Assembly: GCA_011375175.1 (NCBI GenBank) | Contig: DRME01000054.1 | Span: forward strand, 1-43,947 | Direction: 5' to 3' | Length of the DNA stretch: 43,947 nucleotides | Source of the DNA: Deltaproteobacteria bacterium | Lineage (GTDB): Bacteria > Desulfobacterota > GWC2-55-46 > DRME01 | Shown here: in pieces, positions 1 to 31,425 of the stretch | How the letters are laid out: every line of letters begins with the position of its first letter | Numbering within the stretch: the stretch's first letter is position 1 | The notes under the pieces: generated by a model | Seen by the model: the letters and a program-made list of their open reading frames with translations, nothing else | Told to the model about the DNA's origin: nothing | Databases searched by the model: none | Position numbers and translations under genes: made by a program

Positions 1-150
1 ACCCCCTTCAAAGACTTTTAATTCCCTGCGGTTCATCCCGATTTTGCTTGCAAAATCGGGATGAACCGCAGGGCGTTAAAAGTTTTTGGAGGGAGTCTGA
101 GGGAACCTTTTTACAAAAAGGTTCCCTCAGTGCAATAAATCAGAGCTTCC
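1..150. repeat. Composite palindromic element R1 (cut by window start)
   Basis: This is the right-hand part of the composite repeat seen complete at 16349-16553. Hairpin B begins at base 1. Its core is a perfect palindrome at 24-73 with 24-bp arms and a 2-nt loop, starting CCCTGCGGTTCATCCC. Outer arms related to CCCCCTTCAAAGACTTTT and AAAAGTTTTTGGAGGG flank it at 2-19 and 78-93. Hairpin C (97-130) has perfect 16-bp arms, CTGAGGGAACCTTTTT and its complement, around AC. The terminal arm TGCAATAAATCAGAGCTTCC follows at 131-150. The left terminal arm and hairpin A must lie upstream of the window. Nothing in it looks coding. Confidence 0.85.
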
Positions 151-225: not shown

Positions 226-311
226 CTGGAGGCCGCGGTGGGGGTGTGGGGCCGCAAAGGCGTAAAAGGACCCCGCCTGGCGCGGGCCTACACCCCCACA
301 GCGGCCTCCAG
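226..311. repeat. D-type hairpin, copy D1
   Basis: A long hairpin whose arms start CTGGAGGCCGC (226-236) and end GCGGCCTCCAG (301-311). Inside is a G-rich/C-rich stem, GGTGGGGGTGTGG against the ACACCCCCACA side. The apex is the core shared by all six D copies: GGCCGCAAAGGCGTAAAA, a short A/G loop, then CCCGCCTGGCGCGGGCC. AGGCG and CGCCT pair at the tip. This copy lacks the GAATAACATACGA tail that follows most others. Confidence 0.8.
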
Positions 312-9124: not shown

Positions 9125-9164
9125 CCGCCGCCGGGCCGGGAGGAGGCCGCACATACGACGTGTC

Positions 9165-9241
<77 letters not shown>

Positions 9242-9273
9242 TTACTTTCTTTTTTGTAAAAAAGAAAGTAAGC
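9242..9273. repeat. Perfect AT-rich hairpin abutting tRNA-Pro
   Basis: CTTACTTTCTTTTTT (9242-9256) and its exact complement (9259-9273) form a 15-bp hairpin with a 2-nt loop, starting at the base after the CCA adenine-proximal end. The T-run sits inside the stem rather than after it, so it is not a textbook terminator, although it could end the tRNA transcript. The long-arm, tiny-loop design matches hairpin C of the composite elements. Confidence 0.6.
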
Positions 9274-9375
9274 AAAGAAAAAACAATAGGAAGTTTGCTT
9301 CATGGCAGGTAAATTCGATCTTCGAGCCGCGTTGGTTCTCATGATGGCTGATGAAACGAGGTTCTTCAGCCGAAG

Positions 9376-9457
9376 TTAAGGAAGCTCTGATTAATTACCC
9401 TGGGGGAAACTTTCTGTAGAAAGTTTCCCCCAGTGCAATAAATCAGAGTTGCCTTAA
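9376..9457. repeat. Composite element R2, minimal single-hairpin form
   Basis: TTAAGGAAGCTCTGATTAATTACC (9376-9399 region) runs directly into hairpin A (CTGGGGGAAACTTTC, TGTA loop, complement) and then the right terminal arm TGCAATAAATCAGAG, ending CCTTAA at 9457. The whole forms one 37-bp imperfect stem. The termini TTAAG are repeated directly on each side, a possible 5-bp target duplication. Just downstream, GAGTCTTTGAAGGGG (9459-9473) is the arm of hairpin B. Together with D2 it looks like another element fragment in reverse orientation. Confidence 0.8.
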
Positions 9458-9502
9458 GAGTCTTTGAAGGGGCGTCCTGCCCTCGCCATCTTGCGTTGGG
9501 TG

Positions 9503-9600
9503 GGCTGTGCCGGGGGTACGGGCCGCAAAGGCGTAAAAAAACCCGCCTGGCGCGGGCCGTACCCCCGGTACAGCCGAAGACCCGAATAACATACGATGGG
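9503..9600. repeat. D-type hairpin, copy D2, with conserved tail
   Basis: The stem GGCTGTGCCGGGGGTACGG (9503-9521) pairs with the CCGTACCCCCGG/ACAGCC side ending at 9575, allowing a bulged G and one G-U pair. The apical core is the same as in D1. It is followed by the tail GAATAACATACGA, also present after D3 and D7 and beside D5, with a G variant (GAATAACATACGG) after D4. A further arm related to CTTCTACAGAAAGTTTCCCC ends near 9650, six bases before the stop codon of the minus-strand dehydrogenase. Confidence 0.8.
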
Positions 9601-9655
9601 TCTGGGGGGAACGCGGGCCTGTGGCCCTTCTACAGAAAGTTTCCCCCGGACTGCC

Positions 9656-16348: not shown

Positions 16349-16553
16349 GGAAACTCCGATTAATTACCCTGGGGGAAACTTTCTGTAGAAAGTTTCCCCC
16401 AGACCCCCTTCAAAGACTTTCGATACGAGTTGGTTTCCCCCTGTTTTGCTTTGCAAAACAGGGGGAAACCAACTCGCTTCAAAAGTTTTTGGAGGGAGTC
16501 TGAGGGAACCTTTTTACAAAAAGGTTCCCTCAGTGCAATTAATCGGAGCTTCC
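16349..16553. repeat. Composite palindromic element R3 (complete three-hairpin form)
   Basis: The best-preserved copy. Terminal arms GGAAACTCCGATTAATTACC (16349-16368) and TGCAATTAATCGGAGCTTCC (16534-16553) pair over most of their length and enclose three hairpins. Hairpin A (16369-16402) has 15-bp arms and a TGTA loop. Hairpin B (16403-16499) has an inner perfect 24-bp-arm palindrome at 16426-16476. Hairpin C (16500-16533) has 16-bp arms. Drawn as one strand it is a four-way junction. The inner palindrome of B (CGAGTTGGTTTCCCCC start) differs wholly from other copies yet is perfectly paired. In the terminal arms CCGATT/AATCGG replaces CTGATT/AATCAG, a compensated change. Confidence 0.9.
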
Positions 16554-18747: not shown

Positions 18748-18982
18748 AAGGGAAGCTCTGATTAATTACCCTGGGGGAAACTTTCTGTAGAAGGGCCACA
18801 GGCCCACGTTTCCCCCAGACCCCCTTCAAAGACTTTTAATTCCCTGCGGATCACCCCGATTTTGCTTGCAAAATCGGGGTGATCCGCAGGGCGTTAAAAG
18901 TTTTTGGAGGGAGTCTGAGGGAACCGGGGGTCTGTGACCCTTTTACAAAAAGGTTCCCTCAGTGTAATAAATCAGAGTTTCC
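18748..18982. repeat. Composite palindromic element R4 with extended hairpin tips
   Basis: Terminal arms AAGGGAAGCTCTGATTAATT and TGTAATAAATCAGAGTTTCC (18963-18982) enclose hairpins A (18771-18818), B (18819-18914) and C (18915-18962). A carries an extra tip, GGGCCACAGGCCC, and C carries GGGGGTCTGTGACCC. Each tip is itself a small hairpin absent from R1 and R3. The inner palindrome of B (18842-18891) reads GATCACCCCG/CGGGGTGATC where R1 reads GTTCATCCCG/CGGGATGAAC, so the changes are paired. ATAAG occurs on both outer edges, a possible 5-bp target duplication. Confidence 0.88.
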
Positions 18983-19051: not shown

Positions 19052-19225
19052 GCGCCGGCTGCCTCCGGGGGCTGTGCCGGAGGGTTCGGGCCGCAAAGGC
19101 GTAAAAAACCCGCCTGGCGCGGGCCGAACCCCCGGCACAGCCGAATATCCGAATAACATACGATGGGGCGAGGGTGGAGACGCGGGCCCATGGCCCTTCT
19201 CCAGAAAGTTTCCCCCAGACTGTCC
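19052..19225. repeat. D-type unit, copy D3 (first of a 174-bp tandem pair)
   Basis: The unit begins GCGCCGGCTGCCTCCGGGGG. The hairpin at 19070-19142 has stem GGCTGTGCCGGAGGGTTCGG against CCGAACCCCCGGCACAGCC around the shared core. The tail GAATAACATACGA and an arm with GGGCCCATGGCCC and AGAAAGTTTCCCCCAG follow. It is repeated directly at 19226. Confidence 0.8.
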
Positions 19226-19392
19226 GCGTCGGTTGCCTCCGGGGGTTGTGCCGGGGGGTCGGGCCGCAAAGGCGTAAAAAAACCCGCCTGGCGCGGGCCG
19301 ACCCCCCGGTACAGCCGAATATCCGAATAACATACGGTGGGGCGAGGGTGGAGACGCGGGCCCATGGCCCTTTTGCGGAAAGTTTCCATCTG
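19226..19392. repeat. D-type unit, copy D4 (second tandem copy)
   Basis: Begins GCGTCGGTTGCCTCCGGGGG, 174 bp after D3. The hairpin at 19244-19316 uses stem sequence CCGGGGGGTCGG against CCGACCCCCCGG, where D3 has GGGTTCGG/CCGAACCC, so the difference is paired. The tail GAATAACATACGG and GGGCCCATGGCCC arm recur, then decay toward the ribosome-binding site of nhaA. No gene lies between 18692 and 19436. Confidence 0.8.
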
Positions 19393-22013: not shown

Positions 22014-22380
22014 TAAGGAAGCTCTGATTAATTACCCTGGGGGAAACTTTCTGTAGAAGGGCCACAGGCCCACGCTTCCCCGCTGCCCCATCGTATGTTA
22101 TTGGGGTCTTCGGCTGTGCCGGGGGGTTCGGCCCGCGCCAGGCGGGGTTTTTTTACGCCTTTGCGGCCCGACCCCCCGGCACAGCCCCACGAGGCAGTCG
22201 GTGCGGGCGGGACGCCCCCTTCAAAGACTTTTAATTCCCTGCGGTTCATTCCCTGCGGTTCATCCCGATTTTGCTTGCAAAATCGGGATGAACCGCAGGG
22301 CGTTAAAAGTTTTTGGAGGGAGTCTGAGGGAACCTTTTTACAAAAAGGTTCCCTCAGTGCAATAAATCAGAGTTTCCTTA
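22014..22380. repeat. Composite palindromic element R5 (largest, with nested D hairpin)
   Basis: Termini TAAGGAAGCTCTGATTAATT and AATAAATCAGAGTTTCCTTA bound 367 bp. Inside are hairpin A with the GGGCCACAGGCCC tip (from 22037), a D hairpin in reverse orientation (22112-22186), hairpin B (22215-22323) and hairpin C (22324-22357). The left side of B's palindrome carries an extra copy of a 14-nt unit (CCCTGCGGTTCATT at 22237-22250, before the paired copy from 22251). That extra copy has no partner in the other arm. This element shows that A, B, C and D are modules of one unit. Confidence 0.88.
22112..22186 (-). repeat. D-type hairpin, copy D5 (reverse, inside R5)
   Basis: On the minus strand the shared core GGCCGCAAAGGCGTAAAA and CCCGCCTGGCGCGGGCC sits on stem GGCTGTGCCGGGGGGTCGGG. 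The partner arm is CCGAACCCCCCGGCACAGCC, with one mismatch. The conserved tail appears as TCGTATGTTATT at 22091-22102 (plus strand), one base changed from the usual form. Confidence 0.8.
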
Positions 22381-22533: not shown

Positions 22534-22944
22534 TCAGGCGCGTTCGTCGACGAGGTGGCGTCTTTCCTCAAGAAAATCGACGAGCCTGTCGAGCTCTTCC
22601 TTATTGCAGTCGACGAACTCCACGTGCAGCCCCTTTGCATAGAGCGACTCGTCGGCGTTCACGCCCACGACCTTTCCCTTGAACTCGCCGAGGCGTTTGC
22701 CGTCGGGCGGTATGAAGAGCTCGATCTCGATGAGGGAGCCCCTGGGCAGCAGGTTCTCGGTCTTGATGAAGAGACCGCCGCGACTTGCATTGAGGACGAA
22801 GTCGTTGCCGCTCGTCGTCCGGCCTTTGAAGCGCACGGACAGGGTAACGGGAAAGCGTATGTATCGGCGTCTCTCCTCCACTGTCGAGTATTCCACCGCC
22901 TGCCCGGCGCGGTCGAGTATTATTATCCCTTCCCTTACGGGCAT
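22534..22944 (-). CDS. PilZ-domain c-di-GMP receptor
   Basis: A probable cyclic di-GMP effector of 136 residues. The PilZ binding motifs are both intact: RxxxR at R26-R30 (RRYIRFPV) and NxSxxG at 52-57 (NASRGG). The rest is the PilZ beta-barrel plus a C-terminal helix (EELDRLVDFLEERR). No other domain is present, so it must act through a partner. ATG 22944 is chosen because GGAGGGACGGAG lies directly upstream. A longer frame to 23196 reads repeat DNA. It lies between elements R5 and R6, with no neighbour that names its target. 22381-22533 downstream holds nothing recognisable. Confidence 0.88.
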   Translation of the reverse strand: MPVREGIIILDRAGQAVEYSTVEERRRYIRFPVTLSVRFKGRTTSGNDFVLNASRGGLFIKTENLLPRGSLIEIELFIPPDGKRLGEFKGKVVGVNADESLYAKGLHVEFVDCNKEELDRLVDFLEERRHLVDERA

Positions 22945-23121
22945 CTCCGTCCCTCCGTTTCCCTCGAACTGCTGGCCCCTATGCGCGCCCTTGCGCCTCT
23001 TCGTGGATTGAGGGGAGACCCGCTCTGGAGTTGTGGGAGGTGGAATGGTTACGCGTTGTGTGATCGGTCCGCCGGTGGTGAAGTCCTCTCTCTCGTCTCG
23101 ATGCGCCGCGCGCAGGGAATT

Positions 23122-23213
23122 AAGGAAGCTATGATTTATTACACCGGGGGAAACTCTCTGTAGAAGGGCCATAGGCCCACGTTTCCCCCGGTGCAATAAA
23201 TCAGAGTTTCTTT
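23122..23213. repeat. Composite element R6, single-hairpin form
   Basis: AAGGAAGCTATGATTTATTA leads into ACACCGGGGGAAAC, then a loop with the GGGCCATAGGCCC tip, and GTTTCCCCCGGTGCAATAAAT closes it. The stem uses ACCGGGGG/CCCCCGGT where other copies have CCTGGGGG/CCCCCAGT, so pairing is kept or improved by a change on each side. It lies between the PilZ gene and lysS. Confidence 0.82.
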
Positions 23214-31071: not shown

Positions 31072-31169
31072 TACTCCCTCCAAAAAACTTTTAACGCCCT
31101 GCGGATCATTCCGATTCTGCTTGCAGAATCGGAATGATCCGCAGGGAATTGAAAATCTTTGAAGGGGGT
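31072..31169 (-). repeat. Isolated B-type hairpin (R7), reverse orientation
   Basis: The inner perfect palindrome at 31097-31146 has 24-bp arms. It reads GATCATTCCGATTCTGC against GCAGAATCGGAATGATC, with several paired differences from R1 and R4. The outer arms, ACTCCCTCCAAAAAACTTTT and GAAAATCTTTGAAGGGGGT, show the module is reversed relative to R1. Hairpins A and C and the termini are missing. It begins 20 bp after the bamA stop and could help to end or stabilise that transcript. Confidence 0.85.
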
Positions 31170-31196: not shown

Positions 31197-31292
31197 GGCG
31201 GTCCTCTGGAGGTTCGGGCCGCAAAGGCGTAAAGAGCCCGCCTGGCGCGGGCCGAGCCTCCAGAGGACCGCCAAACATCCGAATAACATACG
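31197..31292. repeat. D-type hairpin, copy D7, with tail
   Basis: The hairpin at 31197-31272 has stem GGCGGTCCTCTGGAGGTTCG against CGAGCCTCCAGAGGACCGCC. This stem sequence is largely unrelated to D2-D5 but is still paired over 20 bp. The apical core GGCCGCAAAGGCGTAAA / GCCCGCCTGGCGCGGGCC is unchanged. The tail GAATAACATACGA follows at about 31280-31292. Confidence 0.82.
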
Positions 31293-31425
31293 AGGGGGGA
31301 AACGAGGGGGCCTATGGCCCTTCCACTGAGAGTTCAGCCGGCCGGCAAACTCTCAGGCGGCCCTTGCTCTCAGGGGCCCGAAGGTGTAAAATCTCAGAAA
31401 GTCCAGTCAAAAGGAGAAGGTATCG

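Follow-up and report, generated by a model that had tools for sequence, protein, structure and literature searches.

Multi-hairpin intergenic repeats of a deltaproteobacterium are probably IS5-type MITEs with palindromic cargo

What are the long, composite palindromic repeats that recur between the genes of this deltaproteobacterium, and how might they spread? The window analysed here is a stretch of 43,947 nucleotides that makes up one entire contig (C54) of a 2.49-Mb genome assembled in 138 contigs. The initial annotation listed seven intergenic loci with common modules, and all seven (R1 to R7) are present at about the positions that it reported. We propose, with a probability of roughly 0.88, that the R family consists of IS5-type MITEs that are moved in trans by a lost or missing IS5-family transposase, build composites through TTAA sites, have their arms kept up at the DNA level and carry palindromes as lineage-specific cargo.

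The complete form has the order left TIR, A or Ax, linker, B, linker, C or Cx and right TIR. Its left TIR is GGAARCTCTGATTAATTAC, hairpin A is CTGGGGGAAACTTTCTGTAGAAAGTTTCCCCCAG and Ax is a longer form with a small additional hairpin, while the central palindrome B, whose centre is found in at least four versions, is flanked by the linkers ACCCCCTTCAAAGACTTT on the A side and AAAGTTTTTGGAGGGAGT on the C side. R3 (16349..16553, forward strand) is a 205-bp TIR-A-B2-C-TIR element with no exact target duplication (TSD): left TIR at 16349-16367, A at 16369-16402, B2 with its linkers at 16403-16499, C at 16500-16533 and right TIR at 16534-16553. R1 (1..150, forward) is the right part of a TIR-A-B-C-TIR element truncated by the contig start, with B at 1-96, C at 97-130 and the right TIR at 131-150. 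R4 (18751..18982, forward) reads TIR-Ax-B1-Cx-TIR. R5 (22017..22377, forward; flanks CTAA and TTAG) reads TIR-Ax-(E,D reverse)-B1-C-TIR; it had been described as a four-hairpin form, and a further, separate D/E repeat (22085..22200, reverse strand) lies between its A and B modules. The two single-hairpin forms, the 74-bp TIR-A-TIR element R2 (9380..9453, forward) and the 88-bp TIR-Ax-TIR element R6 (23124..23211, forward; flanks TTAA and TTGA), were correctly recognised, and each has both termini. R7 (31073..31169, reverse) is module B alone without termini.

The family is abundant throughout the genome. The end motif CTCTGATTWATTRC occurs in 238 exact copies (118+120) in the 2.49 Mb, compared with none for the reversed control, and in 375 copies at one mismatch. 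Further statistics were drawn from a 423-kb sample of stretches of the same genome, in which modules were located by blastn. The sample holds 25 two-ended elements (~59 per Mb), 74-481 bp in size and with no transposase inside; at these lengths they are too short for a transposase of ~340 aa. Recognised modules make up ~15% of the intergenic bases; DNA outside called genes is 17% of the sample and accommodates 93% of the module bases. These figures are approximate, as the genes were called with our own hexamer gene caller. The earlier statement that the repeats are absent from coding DNA therefore holds broadly; one weakly anchored ORF call (22534-23196) shares bases with R6 at the 5' end of the ORF. 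Because numerous contigs begin or end within an R element, the true copy numbers are probably higher.

The ends and the flanks of the elements point to transposition. The family TIR is GGAARCTCTGATTWATT and the target duplications are 4 bp long with the consensus YTAR, the type of duplication that IS5 produces (PMC10359306). Exact 4-bp TSDs flank 11 of the 25 elements, while shuffled pairing gives a mean of 1.9 and a maximum of 9 in 20,000 trials; in another 8 the two duplicates differ at two or three positions. R2, with TTAA on its left (9376..9379) and on its right (9454..9457), occupies a TTAA of another repeat, an older B4-type repeat linker (9336..9472) that is split by the insertion and of which an uninterrupted copy is present elsewhere in the genome. 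Deleting R2 together with one TTAA restores a 59-bp stretch that matches the uninterrupted linker L159:9170-9228 at 93%. Another element of the genome, L151:7064-7296 (flanks CTTA/CTTA), has a 30-bp exact junction match to positions 9258-9287 of the window; this 30-bp tract, downstream of a tRNA at 9164-9237, is the interrupted target of that element.

An autonomous partner in the same genome is usual for a MITE and not defining, and here it may be lost or unassembled. A profile search found no DDE_Tnp_1 (PF01609) gene in the window's genome, and a protein search found no L075-type transposase among its 138 contigs, many of which end inside repeats. Nor was an autonomous IS found beside the loci with exact TIRs; such elements surfaced only in a scan of PF01609 loci that allowed a looser TIR. 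They include two 1183-bp full elements of Spongiibacter pelagi (L208 and L218) with the exact TSDs TTAG and CTAG, a 1318-bp full element of a Desulfobacterales MAG (L209) with the exact TSD TTAA and a 1222-bp full element (L075) of S146_70, a member of the same class as the window's genome, with the flanks TTAG/CTAA and no exact duplication. Against NF033581 (IS5_4; cut-off 140), the transposases of L208, L209 and L075 reach 295-350 bits, and they also carry PF01609 plus PF05598. The TIRs of these long autonomous elements from outside the order differ from the MITE ends by a few bases. In the order-mate NC_groundwater_1646, several contigs end in TTAA-GGAAACTCTGATTTATT-CCTCCCC followed by a transposase start (L178 and L193), a pattern suggestive of insertion sequences whose multiple copies interrupt the assembly; the 17-bp TIR core of the elements in the window's genome is identical to these IS ends. 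Variants of the TIR GGAAACTCTGATTTATT joined to a transposase start are also found at L240, L245 and L252. The assignment to IS5-type MITEs is based on the IS5-family ends with YTAR duplications, the ends linked to transposase starts in order-mates and the insertion of R2, so that a TIR match, a 4-bp YTAR TSD and a filled site with its empty counterpart (R2 and L159:9170-9228) are all at hand. At L242 of an order-mate (G047, ~2918-2975), a right TIR and TTAA appear to follow directly on the 5' end of an IS5-type element, which runs as far as the start of the transposase; this looks like an internal-deletion derivative and is a candidate birth of a MITE. Searches of plasmids and viral contigs with the TIR gave no matches, and neither did R4 against plasmids and phages.

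The folding of the arms raises another explanation, that the repeats are transcribed as a structured RNA or an RNA-processing element in which RNase III sites, stability or protein-binding arms place the pairs under selection as RNA. Very stable folds are in favour of it: R3 folds as an outer stem with three arms both as DNA and as RNA, and its RNA fold has z = -19, with none of 200 shuffles equally stable. The four-way junction seen by the initial annotation is one of two folds whose energies are almost the same (L001: multi-arm -133.7, rod -130.6 kcal/mol), and it is not universal, R4 with its Ax and Cx folding as one long rod. Covariation above all shuffles is also in keeping with an RNA: in 19 aligned copies, 6 pairs of the multi-arm structure vary in both partners (shuffle mean 1.3); the covariation score is 0.053 for this structure and 0.040 for the rod. 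MITEs of other species act in mRNA processing (review PMC10969869), and the linker stem has two fixed G-T pairs that, though only two positions, favour one RNA strand. Local hairpins are thus maintained, but under no clear RNA-type rule. Mismatched pairs over the A, B and C arms comprise 29 G-T and 18 A-C, a ratio that is not decisive (p ~0.14) and shows no clear excess of G-U over A-C. The loops occur in both orientations; for instance, within fixed flanks the B loop reads TGCTTGCA 12 times and TGCAAGCA 13 times. The gaps that hold the elements show no preference in gene orientation (11 co-directional, 7 divergent and 4 convergent). Rfam 15 yields only sub-threshold miRNA-type matches to the long hairpins, and above the gathering score it finds two tRNAs in the window and nothing in the repeats. 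The lack of a clear G-U preference together with loops in both orientations fits upkeep of the palindromes at the DNA level better than upkeep as RNA, and we infer that hairpin upkeep and loop inversion are DNA-level processes. The structured-RNA explanation is accordingly improbable. A terminator role was also considered and rejected as unlikely, because there is no bias to convergent genes (4 of the gaps).

Even less probable is a REP, BIME or REPIN system in which a RAYT, a Y1 tyrosine transposase, moves single-stranded hairpins. The palindromic, intergenic and mosaic layout of the repeats would suit such a system. However, a search of the genome with PF01797 (Y1_Tnp) for the linked RAYT whose presence had been suggested as a check detected no Y1 transposase, Y1 transposition would not produce YTAR duplications beside long TIRs, and no GTAG-tag grammar is apparent by eye. 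That the repeats are an assembly artefact or adapter sequence, as the many contigs beginning or ending inside an element might hint, is hardly credible, given that copies differ in their flanks and at single positions, that there are target duplications as well as an empty site, and that the same ends recur in unrelated assemblies and isolates.

The IS5-type MITE reading thus retains one half of what the initial annotation had offered. A non-autonomous element agrees with the IS5-type TIRs, YTAR TSDs, the empty site and the autonomous relatives with the same ends, whereas a structured RNA or DNA-binding unit finds no support in the A/B/C cargo, which has no Rfam family at threshold, no clear wobble preference and no bias in gene orientation. 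Based on this reading, we propose that an IS5-family (IS5_4) transposase, now lost from the genome or missing in the assembly, would recognise the ends and move the elements in trans. The linkers of existing modules would offer TTAA sites as targets, so that elements would land inside older repeats and composites would grow. The arms may be kept complementary, and the loops flipped, by template switching or cruciform-linked repair, for which an RNA product would not be required. The palindromes themselves would be cargo, differing between lineages.

Module D is a further component of these mosaics. This hairpin, whose core of ~36 nt (GGCCGCAAAGGCGTAA..CCCGCCTGGCGCGGGCC) hardly varies, is present in 47 copies in the 423-kb sample and in the window at 250-285, 9521-9555, 19089-19122, 19262-19296, 22133-22168 (reverse strand) and 31217-31250. 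The first of these is a solo D hairpin core with its own outer stem (250..285, forward), and the last belongs to a D-E unit (31211..31298, forward) whose own outer stem is unrelated; the outer stems of solo D copies are unrelated in sequence yet complementary. In co-directional gaps, module D lies on the sense strand by 19:6. Start codons of diverse genes (GatC-, HypA-, RibF- and YicC-like by eye) lie 43-180 nt downstream of many solo copies. Module D has no Rfam family; it may act as a leader or in binding, or may instead be a sequence that enters the loops of hairpins. D-E-Ax cassettes are also found: one without TIRs adjoins R2 (9503..9647, forward), and tandem D-E-A type cassettes, ~174-180 bp apart and without TIRs, occur at L148:13434-13650, at L155:11632-12017 and in the window, where there are two (19070..19387, forward; ~174-bp spacing). 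Once, at L150:3788-4015, a D-E-Ax cassette lies between TIRs, which indicates that the cassette is likewise cargo.

Whether the repeats are confined to this assembly, a doubt raised by the initial annotation, has a divided answer. Of 297 genomes of the phylum, the window's genome is the only one with an exact match to the B/C linker CAAAAGTTTTTGGAGGG, while the ends are widespread. The 19-base end pattern was located 62 times in 85,000 species genomes; some of these matches are lone chance occurrences that lack a partner end, and many lie in Deltaproteobacteria-type MAGs, Desulfobacterales and Gammaproteobacteria. In 15 genomes picked from those bearing the pattern, YTAR plus the end (two mismatches) gives 2 to 208 matches per genome and the reversed control gives 0; the 208 matches are in the gammaproteobacterium S140_26. 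Outside the window's genome, 27 of 56 elements have an exact TSD, compared with 6.7 by shuffling, and the elements there enclose palindromes other than A/B/C. The motif [CT]GTCAT[TG], which resembles a CGTC/TGTC tag, is present in 42 of 54 elements elsewhere and in none of 46 in the window's genome; where it is near an end, it is mostly within 0-10 nt of the TIR. The published definition of a CGTC REP (a CGTC or TGTC tag, an 8-9-bp stem starting AT, a 4-5-nt loop and a CCA tail) describes 5 of the 54, none of the shuffled controls and none of the 46. IS5-type ends around a CCCTTCGACAAGCTCAGGGCGAACG palindrome are found at L142 and L204 (both of S140_26) and at L109. No earlier report of the end sequence or the cargo strings was found in the open literature, outside which lie most subscription papers and ISfinder.

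Several known systems share parts of this design. IS5-family elements of NF033581 (IS5_4) have the TIR core GGAA-CTCTGATT-ATT and the 4-bp YTAR duplication in common with the R family, but the elements of the window are 74-361 bp long and without a transposase, and none was found in the genome. The nearest precedent is BrickBuilt, the IS5-type MITEs of Porphyromonas gingivalis, in which IS5-type ends have trapped an unrelated repeat and common ends enclose differing interiors (PMC4596501); its cargo is a 23-nt tandem repeat, whereas the window's genome has compensatory hairpins, interchangeable centres and a much higher copy number. Coxiella QMITE2 is also a MITE that holds REP-like palindromes and has solo palindromes (PMC5896051), although its duplications are 7-11 bp, its REP is of the GTAG type and its ends are unrelated (PMC5896051). 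CGTC-tagged REPs were reported without a dedicated transposase, their spread being left open (Di Nocera et al. 2013; PMC3733652), and in one species CGTC dimers lie inside longer palindromes (PMC3733652). In other genomes, IS5-type ends enclose palindromes with CGTC/TGTC-like tags (the 5 of 54 above by the published definition, PMC3733652), unlike the cargo of the window's genome, in which no such tag is found (0/46).

These comparisons suggest that IS5-type ends around differing palindromes are a route by which some bacterial palindromic repeats might spread. It is possible, and we put it forward only tentatively, that GGAARCTCTGATTWATT-ended IS5-type MITEs serve bacterial palindromic repeats as a general vehicle, in which a single end type spread over several phyla would enclose CGTC-tagged REP dimers in some lineages and hairpin sets of an entirely different kind in others. 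If true, this would answer how CGTC REPs move, and CGTC REPs within IS5-type ends, accompanied by IS5-type TSDs in several lineages, make the vehicle testable. The window's genome, in which the cargo is an unrelated set of hairpins and recognised modules occupy ~15% of the intergenic bases of the sample, lends itself well to the study of how a bacterial chromosome multiplies long palindromes and keeps them perfect.
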